Shown here piece by piece: positions 23,524 through 63,397 of a DNA stretch of 64,000 nt. The notes below the pieces were generated by a model that saw only the letters and a list, made by a program, of their open reading frames with translations, did not search any database and was not told the origin of the DNA. The translations under genes were made by a program, and so were the position numbers. Within the stretch, counting starts at the first letter, position 1, and every line of letters begins with the position of its first letter. This DNA is from Paludibacteraceae bacterium (lineage in GTDB: Bacteria; Bacteroidota; Bacteroidia; Bacteroidales; Paludibacteraceae), in NCBI GenBank assembly GCA_017625155.1, contig JAGALP010000010.1, positions 109,407-173,406 of the forward strand, in the 5' to 3' direction.

Positions 23524-23614
23524 GTATAGGCATACCGTATCAGTAAGCGATGATTCCCCCGCTTTGAGGAGGCTGATTACCTCCTCTTAGCCCTAAAACA
23601 AACAACCAACGAAT

Positions 23615-24883
23615 ATGAAACAGACATTACATACTCTTCTTTTCCTCTGCGCTGTGCTGTGTATAGCGTGCGAACCTACAGTGAATTTCTCGCTCAATCC
23701 CAACTCTCTGCAAATGAAGGTGGGCGAGATCACCACTATCAACGTCGTTGGCGAAGCTACTAATATCGAGTGGGCTTCCTCCGATGATTCGGTAGCCACC
23801 GTTTTCCACGGAGTTGTCACAGCCAATGCCATAGGAATGACTACAATCACAGCCAAATCGGGTTCTACCACTGTCAATGCACAGGTCTTTGTCAGCGGTA
23901 CTGACGGCTCTACCTTGCGTATATCTCCTGCCTTCGTATCCCTAAAAAAAGGCGATACCTACCAGTTCCAATATGGCAACACCTATGGTCTTGATCTCAC
24001 ATGGACTTCCTCTGCAGAAGACGTCGTGCAGGTGGATCAGCAAGGCACTATCACCGCGCTCAAACCAGGCAATGCTACCATCACTCTTTCCACTCCTGTG
24101 GAATCGGTTACAGCCCTCGTGGCTGTCGAGCATAAGTGGGGCGACTATTCGCTCGTGTGGTCCGATGAGTTCGATGGCACAACCCTCGACGAGTCCGTTT
24201 GGGGCTATAACCTCGGTGGAGGTGGTTGGGGAAACAACGAGTTGCAATACTACACCCAACGCCCCGAGAACGTGCGTGTCAAAGATGGTTGCCTTGAGAT
24301 CGAAGCACGCAAAGAGACCTACGAAAACCGCGAATATACTTCTGCACGCCTCCTTTCCAAAGGCAAAAAGTCCTTCCTCTATGGCAAGGTGGAAGCACGT
24401 ATCAAGTTCCCAGGTGGTATGGGTACATGGCCTGCTTTCTGGATGATGGGCGAGTCGGGCGGATGGCCTGCTTGTGGCGAGATTGACATCATTGAGCATA
24501 TTGGCTCGCAAGACACACGCGCCTCTTTCGCTGTCCACACCCCAGAGAAAAACGGCACCAACGGCAAGAACTGGCACGCTACTCGTTTCTTCGATGATCC
24601 GTTGTCTAACGACTTCCATACCTATGGAGTAGAATGGTGTCAAGAGGAGAAAGATGGCAAAGATTGTATCCGCTTCTTCGTGGACGGAGTAGAGTATGCT
24701 ACGGTTTGGGAAACGCTTATCGACAATCCTCGTTCATGGCCTTTCACCCAACCGCACTTCATCATTCTCAACTGCGCCATTGGTGGCAACATGGGCGGTA
24801 GAGTGGATGACTCCATCTTCAACCAACAACGTATCATGTACGTGGATTGGGTACGCGTGTACCAACGCCAAGAACAACCCTAA
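23615..24883 (+). CDS. GH16 endo-beta-1,3-glucanase (laminarinase) lipoprotein with two Ig-like domains
   Basis: 422 residues. The lipoprotein signal ends LCIAC (Cys 19). Two Big_2-type Ig domains (about 25-95 and 100-175) lead to a GH16 domain from YSLVWSDEFDGTTLD to MYVDWVRVYQR. The catalytic motif GEIDIIEHIG places the nucleophile at E289 and the acid/base at E294; WGNNELQYYTQRPENV and GTWPAFWMMG are typical of the laminarinase branch. It should cut beta-1,3-glucan at the cell surface. It is the first enzyme of the locus and a close relative of 28192-29466. Confidence 0.94.
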   Translation: MKQTLHTLLFLCAVLCIACEPTVNFSLNPNSLQMKVGEITTINVVGEATNIEWASSDDSVATVFHGVVTANAIGMTTITAKSGSTTVNAQVFVSGTDGSTLRISPAFVSLKKGDTYQFQYGNTYGLDLTWTSSAEDVVQVDQQGTITALKPGNATITLSTPVESVTALVAVEHKWGDYSLVWSDEFDGTTLDESVWGYNLGGGGWGNNELQYYTQRPENVRVKDGCLEIEARKETYENREYTSARLLSKGKKSFLYGKVEARIKFPGGMGTWPAFWMMGESGGWPACGEIDIIEHIGSQDTRASFAVHTPEKNGTNGKNWHATRFFDDPLSNDFHTYGVEWCQEEKDGKDCIRFFVDGVEYATVWETLIDNPRSWPFTQPHFIILNCAIGGNMGGRVDDSIFNQQRIMYVDWVRVYQRQEQP

Positions 24884-26154: not shown

Positions 26155-26211
26155 CTACACCACTCTAAACAACTCTACACTATGCTACACCACACCAAAC
26201 AACTCTACACC
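26155..26211. repeat. ACTCTAAAC/ACTCTACACC word array before the secreted GH16 gene
   Basis: The whole gap between the GH128 and the next GH16 gene is CTACAC-, CTAAAC- and CACCACACC-type words. It contains an in-frame ATG at 26182, but that start would only translate repeat sequence (MLHHTKQLYT) ahead of a complete signal peptide. Confidence 0.7.
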
Positions 26212-27231
26212 ATGCTTCTGCTAATGCTTGCCCTGCCTCTGGCAGCGCAGAGCAGTGCAGACGACTACACCCTCGTTTGGAACGAAGACTTCACCGACAC
26301 TACCCTCGACCGCAATGTCTGGAATATCGAGGTCAATGGCGAAGGCGGTGGTAACAACGAGTTGCAATACTATTGCGAGAAAGGTGTAACCCTTGACGTA
26401 GAACCTATCACAGGCAAGCATTGCCTTGTGCTCATCGCCACCAAAGAGGATTACAAGGGCAAAAAATGCACCTCGGGTCGTGTCAATACCAAGAACAATC
26501 TCTACTACACCTTCGGCAAGATCGAAGCGCGTATCAAGTTCCCTAACACCGCCAACGGTCTATGGCCTGCGTTCTGGCAGATGGGTAATGACTTCGATCA
26601 AGTAGGATGGCCACGCTGCGGAGAGACCGATATCATCGAACTAGGCAATGCCAATGGTATCAACCGTGGTACACAAGACCGCTACTTCAATGGCGCACTC
26701 CATCTTGGTTCCAGATGGGATGCCGTGTGGTGCGATGCACAAGACATCACCTATCCCTATTCCGTAGAAGACACCTTCCATATTGTCACCATGATCTGGA
26801 CACCCACCTCTATTGATATGTATATGGACCGCGATGCCAACCCGGGCGTAAAACCATACTTCCACGCCGACTTAGAGCCCAACGACGATGCCAACTACGA
26901 CCGTAGTCGCGTCTTTGCTAAGCCCAACTTCCTCATCGCTAACCTCGCTGTAGGTGGCAATTTCCCTCAGATTTGGGACATCAACAAGATTACTGCCCTT
27001 GCCAATGGTCCACGCTCCGTCTATATCGATTGGATTCGTATCTACCAACAAGGTACCGACAAAGAGACTTTCACCTCTCCATCGCCTTCCGATGCAATCG
27101 AGCCCGACGACGATACAGCAGTAGAAGATATTACTCTATCCCAACCTGCACAAAAGGTCATCATCAACGGACAAATCTTCATCCGCAAAGACGGACAACT
27201 ATACAATATCGTAGGACAAAAACTTGAATAA
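26212..27231 (+). CDS. Secreted GH16 beta-glucanase with the shared C-terminal tail
   Basis: 339 residues from ATG 26212; an ATG at 26182 is inside repeat words. An ordinary signal peptide (MLLLMLALPLAAQ) has no lipobox. The GH16 domain runs from YTLVWNEDFTDTTLD to YIDWIRIYQQ, with CGETDIIELG placing the catalytic residues at E138 and E143; isoleucine of the usual EID is threonine here. After an acidic linker (SPSDAIEPDDDTAVED) the protein ends in the 25-residue tail (KVIINGQIF... QKLE) shared with five other secreted proteins. It is the only enzyme of the locus with that tail and the only GH16 here without a lipid anchor. Confidence 0.92.
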   Translation: MLLLMLALPLAAQSSADDYTLVWNEDFTDTTLDRNVWNIEVNGEGGGNNELQYYCEKGVTLDVEPITGKHCLVLIATKEDYKGKKCTSGRVNTKNNLYYTFGKIEARIKFPNTANGLWPAFWQMGNDFDQVGWPRCGETDIIELGNANGINRGTQDRYFNGALHLGSRWDAVWCDAQDITYPYSVEDTFHIVTMIWTPTSIDMYMDRDANPGVKPYFHADLEPNDDANYDRSRVFAKPNFLIANLAVGGNFPQIWDINKITALANGPRSVYIDWIRIYQQGTDKETFTSPSPSDAIEPDDDTAVEDITLSQPAQKVIINGQIFIRKDGQLYNIVGQKLE

Positions 27232-39472: not shown

Positions 39473-40435
39473 ATGAAGAAAAATTTTCTCAAATCGTTCG
39501 CACTTATAGCGATGCTATTTAGTGCACTTACACTTTCTGCTGCTTCTGGCGTAGATTGGAGTACAATTGAATTCCTCGGCGATGGCGCAGGTGGAGGTAA
39601 ATATGCGAATAAGTACAAAGTATCTGAAGCGGAAGGGTTAGCTGTGGTTAATATCCAACATCCAGGTTTTGCATCAGAAGATGGAATTTATGTTCATGTA
39701 CCAGCAGGTATCACAGCTTGTTCTGTTAAAAGTGATATCCAAGGTGCTGGCGTGCTTTTGCATCTTTCTGCATTTACGGCACAAGAGACAAATGTTACGA
39801 TTACCTATGGCGCAAATCTAACTTGTACTTTCTGGGTATATTACGTAGATGGTACTACAGACGGCTCTGATACTCCTGATACACCTGATAATCCAGATAC
39901 ACCAGATACTCCTGATACTCCAGAAGATCTTCAAGAAGGTGCATGTTCTGGTACGGCAAAGGGAGTTGATTCGTATTACACCGAAGCAGATCCTGATCAT
40001 GCTATCACTTCACTTGAACAAGGATTCTATTGGCAAGTTCAAACCACTACTGCTGGTGTGAATATCACGGTACAATTCCTTGACAATCTCCCTGGCATGG
40101 CAGCGCCATATCTTTTCCGTTTCGACCAAAATGGTGTGATGATGGGCGGTGATATTCAAATGGCAGGTTGGGATGCTGCCACGCGCACAGCTACCCATAC
40201 CCTTACTGGTTTAGCTAATGGAGAGCAACTTGTTTTCCTTGTAAAAGTTGCACTTGAAGCTGGTAAAGTTCTCTTTACTGAGCGTGTTTCTTATACTGTT
40301 GGTGAAAATTGCGAAACAACCGATATTGATAATGTAGCTACCAATACCGCTGCTAAGAAAGTGATACAAGACGGTCAAATCTACATCATTCACAATGGTA
40401 TTCGCTACAATGCCTTGGGTATGCAGATTAAATAA
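39473..40435 (+). CDS. Secreted two-domain protein with the shared C-terminal tail
   Basis: 320 residues. The signal peptide (MKKNFLKSFALIAMLFSALTLSA) is nearly identical to that of the next gene. Residues about 25-125 form a domain (VDWSTIEFLGDG, YKVSEAEGLAVVNIQHPGF, GIYVHVPAGITACSV, TCTFWVYYVDGTTDG) also present in the next protein. A TPDTPDNPDTPDTP linker follows, then a second beta-rich domain (about 150-280). The protein ends in the 25-residue tail (KVIQDGQIYI... MQIK). Neither domain is one I can name. It begins 37 nt after GH3 on the same strand and so may be part of the glucan regulon. Confidence 0.78.
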   Translation: MKKNFLKSFALIAMLFSALTLSAASGVDWSTIEFLGDGAGGGKYANKYKVSEAEGLAVVNIQHPGFASEDGIYVHVPAGITACSVKSDIQGAGVLLHLSAFTAQETNVTITYGANLTCTFWVYYVDGTTDGSDTPDTPDNPDTPDTPDTPEDLQEGACSGTAKGVDSYYTEADPDHAITSLEQGFYWQVQTTTAGVNITVQFLDNLPGMAAPYLFRFDQNGVMMGGDIQMAGWDAATRTATHTLTGLANGEQLVFLVKVALEAGKVLFTERVSYTVGENCETTDIDNVATNTAAKKVIQDGQIYIIHNGIRYNALGMQIK

Positions 40436-40508
40436 CCATACCCCTTACAAAGCAAAACTCAAAACAACAAATATTAACCTTATTATTAACTTTTAAATTA
40501 TTACGGTT

Positions 40509-43500
40509 ATGAAAAAACATTTTCTAAAATCATTCGCACTACTCGCGATGCTGTTTAGTGCGCTAACCATGAGTGCTAAGCAGTACTGCCAAGAGCCATT
40601 AACACTCAATGGAGGGGCTACTATCCAATTGTCTTGTGAATTGGTTAGTGCAGGTAATTATCGCATTACTATTGAAGGCGAAAATCTTGCTGGATTAGGT
40701 GGTTCATTTTACAATCCAGGAGGAGTAGATTTACGTACTGCAATTACAACTAATACAGCAACAAAGATTGTATGTGATATTGAAGCTGCTTCTGCACCTA
40801 CACTTTATACTCCTCTATATGTCCTTTGTCCAGGCGAACAAAATATCGACTGGCCAAATGATATTGATTGGACGGGTACTTGTGGCGAAGGTGGCGAAAC
40901 TCCATCTACTCCAGAACCAGAAGAGCCTGAAGTAACTGACAAATGGGCTAATGTGGATTGGGTTGAAGATTCAGATAATAAGTATAAAGTATCACACGAG
41001 TGTTTGTCTAGTGTTGTAAATGTACAACAACCACCTTGGGCTGCAGAAAAAGGTATCTATATAACAGCTCCAGCAGGTATTTCTGATTGTACTGTTAATG
41101 GAAAGATTGATGGCGCAGGTATGATTCTTTATCTATCTTCATTTACAGCCAAAGAAACAGAAGTAACTATTACCCATGGATTGGGCTCTTGCACTTTCTG
41201 GGTATATTATGCGGATGGAACCGAGGACGGTGGCGAAACTCCATCTACTCCTACGGAAATCTATGATGTGAATTTTGCTCTTGCTTCTAATGGTTCTTCT
41301 GCTGAAGCAACATCAGGTGATGCTGCACAAGCGATTGACAATAACGCAGGTACTCGTTGGGAATCAGCACAAGAAGACCCTCAAACTTGGACGTTGGATC
41401 TTGGTCAAGCACGTATCTTTAACACTCTTGAGATTGTATGGGAAGGTGCGTATGGAAAAACATTTACCGTTTCTGCAAGTGATGATAAGGAGAATTGGAC
41501 ACCTGTTTGGACTGTAGAAGATCAACAACTGGAAGGATTCCCTTATACCCAAACACAAGTTATCGACAAAACCACTGCTCGCTACATCCAATTCCATGGT
41601 ACAGCGCGTGGTACAGGATATGGCTACTCATTCTGGGAGTTCCGAGTATATCTCGCAGGTGTAAGTACATTTACTTCATTGGAAGCAAAACCAGCTACTA
41701 ACCTCACAAAGATAGGCGAAGGTAATGCTATCACTCTTACTGCTAAAGACCAAAATGGTCAATTAATAGCAACTCCTGATGGAGTCACTTATACAATCAC
41801 CCCAGCAGATGCGGGTACTATTACCAACAATATATATACCCCTGCAAGAATTGGTTTGGCTTCTATTGTTGCTACTATCGGCGAGGTAAGTGCTCCTGCA
41901 TTTGAAGTATTGGCTTATGATGGAGAAAATGTGGCTTTGAGCCCAGATATCAATGCTAGCAAAATCGTTGCTCAATCTGACTTTGCTCCAAGCGGTACAG
42001 ATGCATGGCATGCTATTGATGGCAACGAGGGTAGTGTATGGCAAGGTTCTGCTACCAATGGTGGCGCTGGTGATGAAGAATCTCGCACATACGACTCGTG
42101 GTTTGTAGTTGACTTCGGTGGTTACTACGATATCAACCTTGTATCTATTAAATTTGAAGGTGCTTGCTCACAAGAATATACAGTGGCATTCTCTGCGGAT
42201 AATGCTACATGGGCGACAGCTTACGAATATGTAGGTAACGCAGGTGTATATGGTCACACCAAACTCATTTATGGCAATGATCTCCAAAACAATACCAAAG
42301 CGCGCTATGCTCGTTTTAAGAGCACCAAAGCAGCAACAGAATGGGGTATGAAGATGTTCGAATTTAAAGCATTTGGTACACCATGGGTGGCTCCTGCGGA
42401 TGATGTTAAACCTGTAATGGGTACTGCTACACTCGTTTCTAATACACACAATACGGCTGTGATTGCTGTTACTGCCACCGACAACGAAGAAGTTGGTAAA
42501 TACCATGTTGTATCTGCAACTCCTGCATATGACAAGATGGTAGTTCCTACAGATGGTAAAATTACCGTTACAGATCTTACCCCTTCTACAGAATATGCGC
42601 TCACCATTACAGCTGTTGACTTGGCAGGAAATGAATCTGAGAATGCTGCTACAATGGAAGTGACAACTGACAAATATGATGAAGCACCATCAGGCTTGCC
42701 AACGGTTCCTACTTATCCTGACAACCAAGTGAAAGCAGTATATTCTGAAACTTATAATGCAGACTGCAACTTTGGAGAGTGGGGATCTGGAACACAATAT
42801 ACTCAAGATACATATGGTAAAAAATATGTAACAACAAATTTAGGATATTTTGGTTTGTTTGAATTTGCCTTAAACTGCTCTAATCTAGAAGCGCTCCACT
42901 TGGACGTATGGACTGCTGACGATATGACTTTCCGCGTAGTACCTATTCATGGTGCAGCTGAAGTTGGCGTAACCGTAAGTCTCAAAGGCCAACAATGGAA
43001 CTCCGTAGAAATTCCTCTTTCTGATTATGTAGGCGTACCAGATTGGACTAATGTTTATCAAATCAAGATTGACAATGCGTCTAATAGAACATTCTGGCTT
43101 AACAATATCTATTTCTATACCACTCAGGCACCAGATACTGATAATGAGGCTCCTACCGCAGTTACTGCTACGGCTACTCCTTCCTATTTCTCGGTAACAA
43201 TCCATGCTAAAGCTACTGATAATTCAGGGGCAGTTATTTATGAAGTAAAGAATGGTGAAGATGTTCTTGCTAGTCGCACAGGTGTATCTGCGGAAAACAC
43301 AGATATTGTGGTTAGCAATTTGACTCCAAATACAGATTATATTCTCACATTGGTCGCAAAGGATGAGTCTGCTAATGCGGCAGAACCAGTTAATATTGCT
43401 GTTAAGACTCTGGAAGCACCTGCTCCTGCTCCAGTTCCTACACATGCGGCTGAGAATGTATATGCTATCTATTCCGATGCATATACTTCTCCTGTTTATT

Positions 43501-44009
43501 TTGGTATCGGCGGTTGGGGACAAGCTACTGTGGCTACTGAAGGCAACCTTGCTGCGGAAGACAAGGCATACCTATTGCAAAATACCAACTACCTCGGCTG
43601 GGAGATTAATAATAACCAACCAATTAATGTCTCTGCTTACAATAAAGTGCACTTAGATGTATATGCATTGGCAGATGGTTCTTTGCAATTCACTCCTATT
43701 TCTTTGGCAACTCCTAACAACAAAGAGAACGTTCAAACATTGACGCTCAAAGAAGGTTGGAATCAGTTTGATATAGATTGTGCTACATTCACAGGTGTTG
43801 AATTTGATAAGGTGATCCAAATCAAGTTTGCAGAAGGTGGCAATGCTACATACTTTATCGATAATGTATATTTCTACAAACCAGCAGTTGGTTCTGCTGT
43901 AGAAAATACACAAGTTGAGGTACAATCTCAAAAACTCATTCGCAATGGCGTATTGTACATCATCCGCAATGGTGTTACATACGACGTTATGGGTCGTGTA
44001 GTACGCTAA
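40509..44009 (+). CDS. Large secreted multi-domain protein: two discoidin-like, two FnIII-like, two jelly-roll modules, shared tail
   Basis: 1,166 residues. Order: signal peptide 1-23; unnamed N-domain 24-128; domain shared with the previous protein 144-240; F5/8 type C (discoidin, CBM32-like) 250-385 (GTRWESAQEDPQTWTLDLGQ); Ig-like 390-470; second discoidin-like 473-625; FnIII 632-720; jelly-roll module A 733-872; FnIII 878-968; module B 975-1125 (NVYAIYSDAYTSPVYFG ... YFIDNVYFYKP); tail 1142-1166. No catalytic motif is visible. Such a chain of putative sugar-binding units suggests a surface or secreted adhesin or glycan capturer. Its discoidin-Ig-discoidin block is repeated in 45299-46624 and module B in 44107-45210. 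Confidence 0.83.
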   Translation: MKKHFLKSFALLAMLFSALTMSAKQYCQEPLTLNGGATIQLSCELVSAGNYRITIEGENLAGLGGSFYNPGGVDLRTAITTNTATKIVCDIEAASAPTLYTPLYVLCPGEQNIDWPNDIDWTGTCGEGGETPSTPEPEEPEVTDKWANVDWVEDSDNKYKVSHECLSSVVNVQQPPWAAEKGIYITAPAGISDCTVNGKIDGAGMILYLSSFTAKETEVTITHGLGSCTFWVYYADGTEDGGETPSTPTEIYDVNFALASNGSSAEATSGDAAQAIDNNAGTRWESAQEDPQTWTLDLGQARIFNTLEIVWEGAYGKTFTVSASDDKENWTPVWTVEDQQLEGFPYTQTQVIDKTTARYIQFHGTARGTGYGYSFWEFRVYLAGVSTFTSLEAKPATNLTKIGEGNAITLTAKDQNGQLIATPDGVTYTITPADAGTITNNIYTPARIGLASIVATIGEVSAPAFEVLAYDGENVALSPDINASKIVAQSDFAPSGTDAWHAIDGNEGSVWQGSATNGGAGDEESRTYDSWFVVDFGGYYDINLVSIKFEGACSQEYTVAFSADNATWATAYEYVGNAGVYGHTKLIYGNDLQNNTKARYARFKSTKAATEWGMKMFEFKAFGTPWVAPADDVKPVMGTATLVSNTHNTAVIAVTATDNEEVGKYHVVSATPAYDKMVVPTDGKITVTDLTPSTEYALTITAVDLAGNESENAATMEVTTDKYDEAPSGLPTVPTYPDNQVKAVYSETYNADCNFGEWGSGTQYTQDTYGKKYVTTNLGYFGLFEFALNCSNLEALHLDVWTADDMTFRVVPIHGAAEVGVTVSLKGQQWNSVEIPLSDYVGVPDWTNVYQIKIDNASNRTFWLNNIYFYTTQAPDTDNEAPTAVTATATPSYFSVTIHAKATDNSGAVIYEVKNGEDVLASRTGVSAENTDIVVSNLTPNTDYILTLVAKDESANAAEPVNIAVKTLEAPAPAPVPTHAAENVYAIYSDAYTSPVYFGIGGWGQATVATEGNLAAEDKAYLLQNTNYLGWEINNNQPINVSAYNKVHLDVYALADGSLQFTPISLATPNNKENVQTLTLKEGWNQFDIDCATFTGVEFDKVIQIKFAEGGNATYFIDNVYFYKPAVGSAVENTQVEVQSQKLIRNGVLYIIRNGVTYDVMGRVVR

Positions 44010-44019
44010 TCCTTTTATT

Positions 44020-44050
44020 AGGTTAGGGAGGGTGGCTCCCTCCCTAACTT
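44020..44050 (+). terminator. Perfect 11-bp hairpin, copy 1
   Basis: GTTAGGGAGGG (44022-44032), loop TGGCT, CCCTCCCTAAC (44038-44048), then TTCCTAAA. It lies 10 nt after the stop codon. A copy with the same arms, loop and TTCCTAAA follows the next gene. No T run, so it may act as an RNA-stabilising 3' end as well as a terminator. Confidence 0.7.
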
Positions 44051-44106
44051 CCTAAACCAAACAATGTTTGGCAATATAATTATTAACCTTTTAAATTATT
44101 ACACGT

Positions 44107-45210
44107 ATGAAAAAAATCTTTTCTCTTTTCGCTATTGCGTTATTCGCAATTAGCGCGACGGCTGCTACAGAGTTATTCAATCCATCAACAGCCTCCATTT
44201 TAGAAACTTATTTTGCACCAAATTGGAATCCTGATGGTGTAAGTACTGCTACATACAATGCTACTACTGGTACTATTTCAGTGGACCTTAAGAGCCAGTT
44301 CTACGGTCAATGGCAAGCACAAGTGAAACTCAAACATAATGTTGTTTTTAATCCTGCAAAACAATATGTGTTCTCTGCTAAGTTCCACTCTACCATCGCG
44401 CTGGGTGGTGTTACCGTGAAGATGGACGATAATGTAGCACCTGTGTATGACAACCAAATTAACCTTCCTGCTAATTCAGATTATGTATATACTTCTGAAG
44501 CGGCTAATGGCATAGAAGGCAACAATCAAATTCTAGTATTCGACTTTGGTTGGGCTACTCCTTGCCAAATCACTATCAGCGAAATCTCTATCAAAGAAGT
44601 GGGTGATGCTGTGGCTCCTCCTATAGTTGAGCATCCTGCTGCTGCACCAGTACCTACTCGCGATGCTACCGAAGTGTTCTCTATCTACTCCGACGTTTAT
44701 ACCAGCAACGTTATACGTGTTACTGGTGGATGGAGCCAAACGACTGTTGAACAAGAAGTTCAACTTGCTGAAGGCGATAAGGCGTTTTATTATACGAAGT
44801 GCAATTATCTTGGTTGGGAGTTTAATCATAGTTCTACAATTGGCGATATGAATACATATCCAAGATTCCATATGGATATTTATGTGGCTGAGGCAGGAAG
44901 TATTCAATTCACACCAATTTGGGGTGCAGATGCACTTAAAACTTATACTCTCCAAGCTGGCTGGAACACCATTGATATTGACCTCGTAACAGAGTTTGTA
45001 GGCATCAATTTGGCAAATATCATTCAAATTAAATGGGATAAGATGCCAGCTACATGCTATATTGATAACGTTTATTTCTATAAACCCGTTTCTACTGAAG
45101 TAGATAACATTATTATAGAGAATCATGCTACCAAAGTTATTGAAAATGGTCAATTATTCATCATTCGAAATGGTGTAAAATTTGACGCTACAGGTAGTGT
45201 TGTACGCTAA
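44107..45210 (+). CDS. Secreted protein: CBM4/9-like domain, jelly-roll module, shared tail
   Basis: 367 residues. Signal peptide to SATAA. Residues about 22-172 resemble a CBM4/9-type carbohydrate-binding domain (QVKLKHNVVFNPAKQYVFSAKFHS, VFDFGWATPCQITISEISIKEV). Residues about 180-330 are the PVPTRDATEVFSIYSDVYT ... CYIDNVYFYKP module, closely matching module B of the preceding protein. The tail occupies the last 25 residues (KVIENGQLFI... SVVR). No catalytic residues are evident; a glycan-binding role is inferred. It is flanked by the two identical hairpins. Confidence 0.8.
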   Translation: MKKIFSLFAIALFAISATAATELFNPSTASILETYFAPNWNPDGVSTATYNATTGTISVDLKSQFYGQWQAQVKLKHNVVFNPAKQYVFSAKFHSTIALGGVTVKMDDNVAPVYDNQINLPANSDYVYTSEAANGIEGNNQILVFDFGWATPCQITISEISIKEVGDAVAPPIVEHPAAAPVPTRDATEVFSIYSDVYTSNVIRVTGGWSQTTVEQEVQLAEGDKAFYYTKCNYLGWEFNHSSTIGDMNTYPRFHMDIYVAEAGSIQFTPIWGADALKTYTLQAGWNTIDIDLVTEFVGINLANIIQIKWDKMPATCYIDNVYFYKPVSTEVDNIIIENHATKVIENGQLFIIRNGVKFDATGSVVR

Positions 45211-45220
45211 CTCATTCCCT

Positions 45221-45251
45221 TGGTTAGGGAGGGTGGCTCCCTCCCTAACTT
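45221..45251 (+). terminator. Perfect 11-bp hairpin, copy 2
   Basis: GTTAGGGAGGG (45223-45233), loop TGGCT, CCCTCCCTAAC (45239-45249), identical to copy 1 including the following TTCCTAAA. Confidence 0.7.
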
Positions 45252-45298
45252 CCTAAATAATCCAAGACAATATTACACAACTCTAAAATTTTACAATC

Positions 45299-46624
45299 AT
45301 GAAACACTTATTTATTTCTTTCATTTTATGCAGTTTGACACTATCTGCTTTCGCTCAAGAAACTGATGTTAACTTTGCTCTCACAGCCAATGGCGCAACA
45401 GCAATTGCCACATCGGGTAATCCGCTCCTCGCTATTGATGATAATACGGGTACACGTTGGGAGTCTGAACATGGTGTTGATCCACAAACTCTAACTATTG
45501 ATTTGGGACAACCTCGTACATTCAACACTATCCAAATTGTGTGGGAAGGTGCTTATGCAAAAGACTTTGCAGTATCTACTAGTTTAGATAATGCAACTTG
45601 GACTCCCGTTTTGACGGTAGAAGACCAATATCTGCTCCCTGAAGAACGTACTCAAACGCATTTTATTGATCAAACCACTGCACGCTATATTCAGTTCCAC
45701 GGTACAGAACGTGCATTGGATTATGGCTATTCATTCTATGAGTTCCGTGTATATCTCACAGGCACGAGCACACTTACCACACTTGAAGCTAAACCAGCGG
45801 TTAATCTGACAAAGGTAGGCGAAGGGAATACCATTACCATTATTCAAAAAGACCAAAATGGACTGCCTATGGAGGGTGCAGGCGAGGTGACTTATACGGT
45901 TCTTCCAGCAGGTGCAGGTACAGTAACCAACAATATCTACACTCCTGCCAAAGTGGGTTCTGCACTCATCAAGGCAGCGATTGGTGATGTTGAGGCTACT
46001 CCATTCGAGGTATTTGCTTACGACGGCGAGAATGTAGCAGCTGGTTCTGACAAAGAGAATAGCAAGGTGATTGCTCAATCCGATATCAATCCCGAACTTG
46101 ATGCTAATAATGCATACTATGCTGTGGATAACAATGATGCCACTATATGGCAAGGCTGCTACAATGGCGAAGCAGGTGATGGTGATGAAGCAGCTCGTAC
46201 CTACGATGCGTGGTTTACTGTGGACTTGGGCGCTTATTACGATGTAAATATGGTGTATATCCTATTCGAAGGAGCTAGTTCACAAATGTATCATGTAGAT
46301 TTCTCTGAAGATAATGCGGCTTGGACTACTACCTACACTTATGAGGGTAATGCAGGTATCAATGCACATACACGAGCAATCTATGGCGATGATCTCAAGA
46401 ATGCCTCTAAAGTACGTTATGTGCGCTTCTGGAGTACCAAAGCAGCTACACAATGGGGGGTTAAGATGTTCGATTTCAAGGTATTTGGCTTGCCTTTACA
46501 AGTAACGGACATTTCTTCTGTTGCTACACCAGAAAATCATATGACAAAGGTAATTGAGAACGGTCAACTCATCATCATCCACAATGGTGTGAAGTATGAC
46601 GTGAATGGCAGAATGATAAAATAA
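45299..46624 (+). CDS. Secreted protein with two discoidin-like domains and the shared tail
   Basis: 441 residues. Signal peptide to SAFAQ. F5/8 type C-like domain 1 is about 21-160 (GTRWESEHGVDPQTLTIDLGQ, NTIQIVWEGAYAKDFAVS, ARYIQFHGTER). An Ig-like insert covers about 163-245 and domain 2 about 248-395 (YDAWFTVDLGAYYDVNMVYILFEGAS). The tail is the last 25 residues (KVIENGQLII... RMIK). The first 395 residues parallel residues 250-625 of the protein at 40509, so this is a duplicated block. Sugar-binding is inferred from the discoidin fold. It is the last gene of the plus-strand run and converges with 46665-47471. Confidence 0.83.
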   Translation: MKHLFISFILCSLTLSAFAQETDVNFALTANGATAIATSGNPLLAIDDNTGTRWESEHGVDPQTLTIDLGQPRTFNTIQIVWEGAYAKDFAVSTSLDNATWTPVLTVEDQYLLPEERTQTHFIDQTTARYIQFHGTERALDYGYSFYEFRVYLTGTSTLTTLEAKPAVNLTKVGEGNTITIIQKDQNGLPMEGAGEVTYTVLPAGAGTVTNNIYTPAKVGSALIKAAIGDVEATPFEVFAYDGENVAAGSDKENSKVIAQSDINPELDANNAYYAVDNNDATIWQGCYNGEAGDGDEAARTYDAWFTVDLGAYYDVNMVYILFEGASSQMYHVDFSEDNAAWTTTYTYEGNAGINAHTRAIYGDDLKNASKVRYVRFWSTKAATQWGVKMFDFKVFGLPLQVTDISSVATPENHMTKVIENGQLIIIHNGVKYDVNGRMIK

Positions 46625-61060: not shown

Positions 61061-63397
61061 TTATTTGATTTCTGCGCCCATGATGTTGTAGGTTTTGCCG
61101 TCGCGAATGATGAGGAGTTGCCCATTGCGCAGGATCTTTTGGGTATTGGTTATTGGCGATGGGGTATTATCTATAGAAGAAAGAATATTGCTCTGGGTAG
61201 TAAATTCGCCTGAGTGCGATTGAAGAGTGTTATCTTCTGTATCCTTTGCCGTAATATCGTAGGTATAGTGAGTTCCTTCATTCAACCCAGTGATTGTAAA
61301 GCGCAGACCATTAATCGTTTGCGTTGCATATTGGGTGGTACGATTGTTCCCATTGCGACCTGGAGCAAAAGCGATATTGAGTAGCTGACCATCGGCGTTA
61401 AAAGTAAGAGTGCAGAATACCTCGTTGCCTTTCTGGATAACGATAGTATAGGTGTCTGCATTCTCAGCAGTTGGCCATGTGATGGTAACATCGTTGGTGC
61501 CAGGAGTAACGACAACGTCATCGGTTGGCACATTCTCAGAATCGGCTTCCATGCATTGGATATATTTGAACGAGCCAAAGACCATATCTAATTGATAATC
61601 TTGCAAATTGTCACATGGTACATTTAGATATACGTTGTAGTTTGCAAAAGATGTACTTTCTGCCATAGGAGGATTGATAGCATAGCAATTCACGTGAACC
61701 AACTTTTTGCAACCTGCAAATGCATAATCGCCAATCGAAGTGACGGTATAAGGAATGGTTATTTCGTTTAGTCCGGTACAATCGCTAAATGCGTCATTTC
61801 CAATATGGGTAATACCATTAGGCAATACCACAGTTTGTATTTCGTTTGTAAACAATCCCCAAGGACGGTTATCATACATTCCGCCAAATCCTGATATTGT
61901 GAGAGTGTTATTTTGATAACTCCAATACAGATTATCGCCGCATTGCCCAAAGAATGTTTGTGCAAACTCAGCAAAGAAAGTTGTATCTTGAGTGAGAATA
62001 AAATGACGTGGATTGTCGGTGTTGCCGTCTGACCATTGCACGAAGTGATAGCCGTAGTTGGCTTCGGCGGTTAATGTGATATTATCTAAATACTCGCCAG
62101 AGGAGTAACCATCTACATAACCTTGATTGCTATCATAGTTTTTGGTGATATAATATGTGTTCTTATCAAAATATGCAGTATAGGTCATATCTCTGTAGGG
62201 ATAAACCGTCACGGTAGCAATACTATCTTTCTCTGGAGTAGGGATAGGCTCGGATTTAACGATGGTATAGGTAGCCTTCTCATCTCCTTCTTGGGTGATT
62301 TCAATCCAAATGTTTTCTTCTACGTTAGTGATATCTATAGTTTGGTTCGCATCACCGCTCCAATAGTCACCATTGCGGAAGATTATGTTGAGTGATTCGC
62401 CGTATTCAGCGTAGTATGTATATGTGTACCAGTCTCCTTCTTTTGTGGTATAATCAGGGTACATGTCGTTGTCATTCCAAATCCAAACTGTGATTTCATC
62501 AGTCCAATGTGCAGGCACTTTGGCTTTAACGGTAATGGGGTAGTTCTTCTCTCGATATTGGTTCCAGTCTTCATCTTGCCAATAAGCTAAGTGGTATCCG
62601 TAGTTTGATTTTGCAGATAGGGTAACTGCTTCGCCATAAACAACTGTAGTGTCGCCATAGACAGTACCACGTGGTTCCTCATCCCACTCTTGATAAATAG
62701 CAGTGCTAATGGTATAGGCAATGCGAGAGGATATTGTAGTGTCGCTAGTAACAACAATTGTACGCTCTTTATCTGTCACCCCGTCACTCCAACCGAGCCA
62801 TGTGCCAGATTCGCTTTCATCCCTGAAACTTATAGAACAGCCTTCACGCATGGTAATTTGAAAAGAAGACTCTCCATAGAACTGGGATGTATATTGTTCG
62901 CAGTGATATTCTTGGACGTAGTATTCGTACGAACCATACAAATTCAATCCCTTGATATTTACAGTGTAATAACGAGCATTTTCGTATAATGATGTGATGG
63001 TTGTATCGCTAGTAACAACAATTGTACGATCTTTATCTGTTACACCATCGCTCCATCCTAGCCAAATAATATCACATCCCCCCTCTTCCCGGAATTGCAC
63101 TTCTGTTCCTTCAGGAACTTGGAACTGCATTTTTGTTACGTCATGTATTGGCTCATTGTAGTAGGTTGGATCATAACCATCTAGATTGTATCCTTGGATT
63201 GTTACGGTGTAAGTTGGATTGAGTTCTTGAGCATTGTCGGTTACCTCAACGGCAGGTTCGCTAGTGCTATTACAATACAAGTCACCAGATTGGAAGTCAT
63301 ATGCCCAGAGGGTGGTGGTGGCGAGGAGGGCGAAGAGGAGCCCACATAATCTCTCTTTTAGAGGGGAGGAAATGATTGTAGAGAAAATCTTTTTCAT
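61061..63397 (-). CDS. Large secreted protein: tandem repeats, CBM26-like domain, LRR_5 repeats, FnIII-like domain, shared tail
   Basis: 778 residues. Long signal peptide ending TTLWAY. Two InlB/flagellin-type repeats contain nearly the same WLGWSDGVTDKDRTIVVTSD block (about 118 and 202), also repeated at DNA level. A region around 305-390 (ITVWIWNDND, EGDWYTYTYYAEYGESLNIIFRNGDYW) looks like a CBM26-type starch-binding module. BspA-like leucine-rich repeats follow (VVLPNGITHIGNDAFSDCTGLNEI), then an FnIII-like domain (DVTITWPTAENADTYTI). The 25-residue tail ends the protein (KILRNGQLLI... AEIK). Likely a surface or secreted adhesin or glycan binder; no catalytic motif. Confidence 0.8.
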   Translation of the reverse strand: MKKIFSTIISSPLKERLCGLLFALLATTTLWAYDFQSGDLYCNSTSEPAVEVTDNAQELNPTYTVTIQGYNLDGYDPTYYNEPIHDVTKMQFQVPEGTEVQFREEGGCDIIWLGWSDGVTDKDRTIVVTSDTTITSLYENARYYTVNIKGLNLYGSYEYYVQEYHCEQYTSQFYGESSFQITMREGCSISFRDESESGTWLGWSDGVTDKERTIVVTSDTTISSRIAYTISTAIYQEWDEEPRGTVYGDTTVVYGEAVTLSAKSNYGYHLAYWQDEDWNQYREKNYPITVKAKVPAHWTDEITVWIWNDNDMYPDYTTKEGDWYTYTYYAEYGESLNIIFRNGDYWSGDANQTIDITNVEENIWIEITQEGDEKATYTIVKSEPIPTPEKDSIATVTVYPYRDMTYTAYFDKNTYYITKNYDSNQGYVDGYSSGEYLDNITLTAEANYGYHFVQWSDGNTDNPRHFILTQDTTFFAEFAQTFFGQCGDNLYWSYQNNTLTISGFGGMYDNRPWGLFTNEIQTVVLPNGITHIGNDAFSDCTGLNEITIPYTVTSIGDYAFAGCKKLVHVNCYAINPPMAESTSFANYNVYLNVPCDNLQDYQLDMVFGSFKYIQCMEADSENVPTDDVVVTPGTNDVTITWPTAENADTYTIVIQKGNEVFCTLTFNADGQLLNIAFAPGRNGNNRTTQYATQTINGLRFTITGLNEGTHYTYDITAKDTEDNTLQSHSGEFTTQSNILSSIDNTPSPITNTQKILRNGQLLIIRDGKTYNIMGAEIK

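Follow-up and report, generated by a model that had tools for sequence, protein, structure and literature searches.

A compact C-terminal tail as the probable type IX sorting signal of a genus of Paludibacteraceae

Introduction

Among uncultured bacteria from the gut of plant eaters, dozens of secreted proteins carry a short C-terminal tag where their relatives carry a much longer type IX signal. We describe this tag in one genus of Paludibacteraceae, in which the compact tail and the canonical C-terminal sorting domain (CTD) of the type IX secretion system (T9SS) replace each other on the same protein bodies and never occur in one protein. The tail seems to have largely replaced the longer signal in this group. 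Judged from sequence, the best explanation is that it acts as a compact, or minimal, T9SS sorting signal, a reading to which we assign a probability of about 0.8. The analysis starts from a stretch of 64,000 nucleotides (hereafter the window; contig JAGALP010000010.1, positions 109,407 to 173,406) of a source genome of 1.61 Mb that is 62% complete (G000, assembly GCA_017625155.1).

Six proteins of the window end in one tail

A preliminary description of the window had listed six proteins that end in one ungapped pattern of 25 residues. The pattern is present at all six translated C-termini, and every residue position listed for it is matched by all six proteins. On the forward strand, a GH16 enzyme recognized by translation, Pfam and its orthologues occupies 26182..27231 and ends in a tail at 27154..27228 that is defined by translation, profile and an AlphaFold2 model. 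Its tail stands as described, but the start given at 26212 does not: 26182 is more plausible, as a basic n-region then precedes the hydrophobic core. Upstream of this tail, a T-A-V-E-D junction motif at 27115..27129 (forward strand) marks a candidate PorU cleavage region within a predicted flexible linker; motif enrichment and a pLDDT below 50 at model residues 287-292 suggest this role.

Four adjacent tail genes, all on the forward strand, fill positions 39473-46624. They encode a secreted protein without Pfam domain at 39473..40435 (translation, Pfam scan and profile; tail at 40358..40432), a mosaic discoidin / Fn3 protein at 40509..44009 (tail at 43932..44006), another secreted protein without Pfam domain at 44107..45210 (tail at 45133..45207) and a two-discoidin protein at 45299..46624, whose tail at 46547..46621 is the first row of the 85-tail AlphaFold2 model discussed below; the last three proteins were characterized by Pfam and pairwise comparison. 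The sixth, an InlB-repeat / BspA-type LRR protein identified by translation and Pfam, lies on the reverse strand at 61061..63397, with its tail at 61064..61138. These five tails were delimited by translation and profile. All six proteins carry ordinary signal peptides, as had been claimed, with leaders of the signal peptidase I (SPI) type by a home-made rule. The domains said to differ before the tail are borne out for GH16, discoidin and LRR, while the jelly-roll is not, Pfam having none in the proteins beginning at 39473 and 44107.

The stretch 39473-46624 is a mosaic paralogue cluster, whose 1,166-aa member (40509-44009) has segments akin to all three neighbours: it is 51% identical to 39473-40435 over 103 aa, 48% identical to 44107-45210 over 206 aa and 62% identical to 45299-46624 over 377 aa. 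Because of these shared segments the six window tails are not independent; independent support for the tail comes instead from unrelated bodies elsewhere in the source genome, where 6 of the 10 scanned proteins among the 28 other tail proteins have Pfam domains (subtilase, endonuclease I, DUF4465, starch-binding and InlB-repeat among them).

Distribution of the tail

The preliminary description had proposed a profile search of the genome and its relatives. When a first profile of 26 columns, built from the six window tails, was run against the source genome, it matched at 34 places with E < 1e-3. Within the window and 17 further stretches that surround these matches, all 34 corresponding ORFs have their match (E up to 5e-3) 0-4 residues from the stop, which places the tail far beyond chance; three weak matches in the same material (E 0.04-0.8) are internal rather than C-terminal. 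Two small ORFs (L034:5975-6382 and L036:14745-15158) have tail-like C-termini whose second turn contains a short insertion (E 0.02 and 0.1), perhaps a variant tail.

A second profile (A2) was built from the 34 tails of the source genome, which as seeds match it by construction. At E <= 1e-3 it detects the tail in all 61 genomes of the genus, with at least 3,089 tails in total and from 2 to at least 91 per genome. Further away the signal fades: A2 matches in 30 of the 165 other genomes of the family (1-8 each) and in 2 of the 147 other genomes of the order (one each), and at E <= 1e-4 in none of 394 other genomes of the phylum, the source genome alone being positive out of 395. Among the matches listed for a DNA pattern of the tail (80 of at least 118 stretches), all contigs belong to a Paludibacteraceae or Bacteroidales bacterium, and the animal named in the titles is always a ruminant.

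Tails accompany signal peptidase I leaders

The lipobox part of our leader rule exists in a looser and a strict form; the strict one was set after the looser had flagged tail proteins, and was therefore not blind. The looser form returned 12 tail proteins among 105 lipobox ORFs. As lipoproteins these were rejected: by eye, the cysteine of 11 falls within the hydrophobic core, with further hydrophobic residues or an AxA-like site after it, while the twelfth (L207) does not lie at a true N-terminus. By the strict rule, the tail is found on 170 of 478 SPI-like ORFs vs 0 of 71 lipobox (SPII) ORFs in the fetched stretches, with a Fisher p of 6e-13 that is only a guide, since the proteins are related, signals guided the choice of stretches and the strict form of the rule came second. 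Restricted to the 175 tail ORFs of at least 150 aa with both ends seen, the count is 170 SPI, none SPII and five unclassified.

Within the window, the strict rule finds a lipobox in ten ORFs, all of them tailless. Eight lipoproteins of the glucan locus had been said to lack it, and all eight do: seven are among these ten, and the eighth (23615-24883; ORF 23597-24880), called SPI by the rule, has a lipobox by eye and is likewise tailless. The 93 distinct GH16 homologues, this enzyme among them, extend this picture. Here, 47 tail proteins and 2 CTD proteins have SPI leaders, and 40 lipobox proteins have neither signal; the C-terminus of 14 of the 40 lies beyond the fetched stretch, and all of the 26 informative ones are without tail. 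One homologue (L340) combines an SPI-like leader with neither signal, a point against the tail as T9SS signal, and the leader rule left unclassed one homologue with a tail and one with neither signal. That proteins reach the surface either by lipid anchoring or by the tail, as had been suggested, is thereby well supported within GH16, L340 being the one exception.

Exchange of the tail with the canonical CTD

In order to compare tail and CTD proteins, genus stretches were fetched around tails and TIGR04183 matches, together with the 118 loci of the DNA pattern; the CTD loci were taken among the best-scoring TIGR04183 matches, so that CTD-rich genomes are over-represented. The fetched ORFs comprise 241 with a tail (238 of them with the match within 5 residues of the stop), 91 with a CTD and none with both. 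After both signals had been stripped, the bodies formed 93 homologous tail/CTD pairs at E <= 1e-10. Seven of the 93, involving seven CTD and five tail proteins, have an alignment of 150 aa or more that stops no further than 30 residues from either signal. One such pair aligns over 1,782 aa at 43% identity and stops 9 residues before the CTD and 10 before the tail; the subtilase of the source genome is also found among the exchange pairs.

The same exchange touches the GH16 enzyme of the window, which is 55% identical to an enzyme of genome G256 with a canonical CTD at its end. A GH16 search of 151 genus genomes matched 66 at E <= 1e-40, and we read the 30 best-scoring loci, 20 picked from the lower-scoring ones and L126. 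Of the 51 GH16 proteins that reach 50% identity, 48 have the tail at their end, two have a CTD there and one has neither. The two CTD-ending orthologues belong to genomes that are poor in tails and rich in CTDs, G246 (10 tails vs 46 TIGR04183 matches) and G256 (9 vs 44); the one with neither signal (L376, genome G232, 706 aa) has a lipobox at its N-terminus. It is from this body-for-body exchange with the canonical CTD that the T9SS reading gains most.

The exchange also bears on another reading, in which the tail would be a surface-binding or stabilizing module of proteins exported by other means. Several bearers are carbohydrate-active or adhesin-like, and the export of tail proteins is itself deduced, both of which suit such a module. 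Against it, the tail stands instead of the CTD and not beside it, no protein having both, and the GH16 homologues with neither signal are nearly all lipobox proteins; we regard this reading as improbable.

T9SS machinery in tail-bearing genomes

SprA (TIGR04189) is matched in 57 of the 61 genus genomes and PorU (NF033707) in 58, and each of them in 26 of the 26 near-complete ones; genomes with many tails and no T9SS are thus not seen among the near-complete members of the genus. The sole genus genome without a match to either is G379, which is 59% complete. In the 62%-complete source genome, SprA gave no match, which counts against the T9SS reading; PorU is present there with an adjoining PorV (NF033710, E 2e-127) outside the window. 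Its side-by-side porU and porV genes lie at G000:C31:66510-69827 and L316:9217-10428. The source genome also has, within a 755-aa frame (G000:C3:31290-32372), another PorU-like match that is partial and does not reach the family cut-off, and a protein adjoining a TIGR04183 match (L320:2-1036) whose match to the FISUMP domain is weak and likewise short of the cut-off.

Across the family, SprA occurs in 192 of 200 genomes. The tail-bearing ones without an SprA match are G000, G177, G226 and G269, the first three of which have PorU. Two of them lie outside the genus: G177, with 7 tails at 96% completeness, and G269, which has 2 tails at 80% completeness and matches neither SprA nor PorU. A count of co-occurrence with leader types and T9SS genes had also been proposed, and it finds the tails with SPI rather than SPII leaders and both SprA and PorU across most of the genus. 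The near confinement of the tail, among the genomes searched, to one genus and its family might suggest that it serves an export machine of its own, peculiar to this lineage and distinct from T9SS. Two things speak against such a machine, the retention of SprA and PorU in the genus and the presence of the tail in the place of CTDs, and we hold it to be very unlikely.

Anatomy and predicted fold of the tail

For the conservation, profile and junction analyses, six weak or gapped tails of the 241 were dropped. The remaining 235 have K2 in 99%, G7 in 98%, Q8 in 91%, I11 in 98%, G15 in 92%, Y or F18 in 99% and G22 in 100%, and in the GH16 proteins (A4, 37 of the 48 GH16 tail proteins) conservation is 0.58 in the tail vs 0.48 in the preceding linker. 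The sharing of domains by four of the six window proteins could be taken to mean that the tail has no function and spread passively at the C-terminus as mosaic genes were duplicated; with unrelated bodies carrying it, with K, G, I, G, Y/F and G (nearly) invariant over 235 tails and with the GH16 tail better conserved than its linker, we find this hardly credible.

AlphaFold2 models of 85 tails predict strands at model residues 18-23, 26-31 and 34-36, with a mean pLDDT of 88 (91-95 over residues 21-44) and a pTM of 0.52. The model of the window GH16 enzyme with 36 orthologues has the same three tail strands (300-304, 307-312 and 315-317, pLDDT 81-90), preceded by a linker of pLDDT 66-67 that drops below 50 at 287-292, where T-A-V-E-D sits. 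The 3+4 beta sandwich of the type A CTD is not predicted for the tail by AlphaFold2, which gives a three-stranded meander instead.

A junction pattern, [TSP]-[AGSTNDE]?-[VIL]-[DE]-[ND], chosen after looking at the sequences, occurs upstream of 75 of the 235 tails, in 64 cases 12-14 residues before the start of the profile. It is present in 13 of 55 CTDs, the count covering those with a YPNP-like anchor only, and in 41 of 2,150 and 18 of 1,600 body windows (1-2%); with a first form of the pattern, the counts for tails, CTDs and body windows were 79 of 235, 17 of 89 and 30 of 1,090. Two thirds of the tails are without the junction motif, which counts against a minimal T9SS signal.

When the tail profile was compared with a CTD profile (2 of the 91 CTDs dropped), only tail positions 18-25 aligned, with the motif B block, at an hhalign probability of 34% and a score of 16.5 that 1 of 100 column shuffles also reached. 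This local comparison aligned no D or E block. A forced global alignment set tail positions 1-6 on the C-terminal lysine stretch of the CTD (the E region) with P 0.16 and is not used as evidence; a reordered (E-D-B) CTD was not supported enough to be retained. The tail had been proposed as a compact sorting signal, possibly a divergent type IX tail. Its role as such a signal is favoured by the CTD exchange, while the motif B alignment gives no more than a hint of homology to the type A CTD.

Comparison with known sorting signals

Pfam and NCBIfam scans covered the six window proteins and 85 tails of 44 aa (A3, 85 of 139 non-redundant tails), with HMMER filters that drop most matches above about 0.1; no model matches the tail credibly in either set. 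In the comparison with TIGR04183 and TIGR04131 recommended earlier, none of the 85 tails is matched by the type A models TIGR04183 and PF18962 up to an E of 10 with the filters on, nor by the type B model TIGR04131. The single match to the type C model NF033708 (1 of 85, E 0.028) is best read as chance, as are the top sequence matches among solved structures, which rest on the hexamer RNGQLL in WD40-type proteins. We did not find the tail described in the open-licence literature of PubMed Central, and the recognized classes of T9SS CTD, according to the excerpted text of PMC10202324, are types A, B and C.

The tail resembles the type A CTD (TIGR04183, PF18962) in its C-terminal position, its SPI leader, some of its bodies, the junction motif and, tentatively, a motif-B-like Y-[ND]-x-x-G-x-x-V. 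It differs in having 26 residues against about 72-80, three predicted strands against seven and no recognized motifs D and E. Type B (TIGR04131) and type C (NF033708) CTDs likewise are alternative C-terminal T9SS signals, but measure about 100 residues or more in the excerpts of PMC10202324 and PMC12618676. A precedent for a short signal is HBP35 of Porphyromonas gingivalis, in which nested deletion found the last 22 residues to be the minimum for surface translocation of a GFP fusion (PMC3120885, in excerpt). This region, unlike the tail, has the motifs D and E that HBP35 needs, and it stems from an engineered deletion rather than a natural class; the lack of a recognizable D/E after motif B in the tail accordingly weighs against a minimal T9SS signal. 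In the excerpts of two further papers, P. gingivalis CTDs need the beta3-beta4 loop with its glycine as well as the C-terminus, and CTDs may work in a species-specific way (PMC11285876), and the conserved type A motifs of Flavobacterium johnsoniae mainly set the fold, with a near-invariant lysine near the C-terminus as a possible exception (PMC10994853).

Nearest in kind to the tail are the short CTDs of Prevotella intermedia, 48 of which are predicted with 43-55 aa (PMC11969387, in excerpt). They too are compact, are predicted to form one three-stranded sheet and share their genome with long CTDs; they retain motif B, which a block of the tail may resemble, and lie after a PT/GI cleavage motif. 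The tail could then be this known short type A CTD in another lineage rather than a separate class, as would also fit the T-[AG]-[VI]-[ED]-N-like motif before a third of the tails and the fact that only the motif-B-like block aligns to the CTD profile. On their description in that excerpt, the P. intermedia CTDs are set apart: they span 40-55 aa from the cleavage site in the order B-D-E and were mostly found by older CTD profiles, according to their authors, whereas the tail spans about 38-40 aa from the junction motif, places its motif-B-like block last, has no visible D/E and matches the type A and B models in 0 of 85 cases. This identity strikes us as possible but doubtful. We put at roughly even odds the stronger statement that the tail is a further class of T9SS signal, which lacks motifs D and E, ends after the motif-B-like loop, is shorter than the natural signals that we found described and displaced the type A CTD gene by gene as the main signal of the genus while the machinery was kept.

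Proposed route and its significance

If the tail is a compact T9SS signal, its bearers would leave the cytoplasm by Sec with the SPI leader seen in their sequence. In the periplasm, the C-terminal 26 residues are predicted to fold into a three-stranded beta meander. Its closing turn, Y-[ND]-x-x-G-x-x-[VIL], after which a basic residue comes in most cases, would resemble the beta3-beta4 loop (motif B) of type A CTDs. Given the CTD exchange and the presence of the machinery, we infer that the tail stands in for the CTD at the SprA translocon and is then collected by PorV. PorU would probably cut the disordered linker near the T-[AG]-[VI]-[ED]-N-like motif, which in about a third of tails lies 12-14 residues upstream, and might then attach the protein to a surface glycan; this PorU step is the least certain of all. 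Lipoproteins, which have no tail, would take a separate route to the surface.

Should this hold, present profiles miss most T9SS cargo of the genus, where at least 3,089 tails (E <= 1e-3) stand against 915 TIGR04183 matches (E <= 0.01, the CTD of PorU itself included) in the 61 genomes. About 25 residues ending in a motif-B-like turn would then be enough for type IX export, limiting the features that the translocon and PorV need to recognize, and the tail would be a very small natural export tag. The genus offers a natural series from CTD-rich to tail-rich species, along which signal replacement can be traced on the same enzymes.

Probable displacement of the CTD along the genus

Along this series, the compact tail would have progressively displaced a CTD of roughly 75 residues. 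Tail and CTD counts per genome are weakly anticorrelated, both in all 61 genomes (rho -0.23, p 0.077) and in a smaller set (n 28, rho -0.37, p 0.05), kinship being ignored in each case. One genome, G388, lies within the tail-rich clade yet has 2 tails and 10 CTDs, possibly through secretome reduction. This weak anticorrelation and the exception of G388 weigh against a takeover by a minimal T9SS signal.

The tree of SprA, built with FastTree, is more telling than the simple correlation of counts; it covers 38 genus genomes, out of the 57 in which SprA is matched (the source genome not included), and two genomes of other genera. A clade of G246, G256 and G359 has 44 tails and 115 CTDs, or 28% tails; G362 and G363, next on the tree, have 53 and 56 (49%), and the remaining 33 genomes 1,806 and 433 (81%). 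The four nodes that define these groups have support of 0.98-1.0, and the sequence of shares suggests a graded takeover of the CTD by the tail along the genus.
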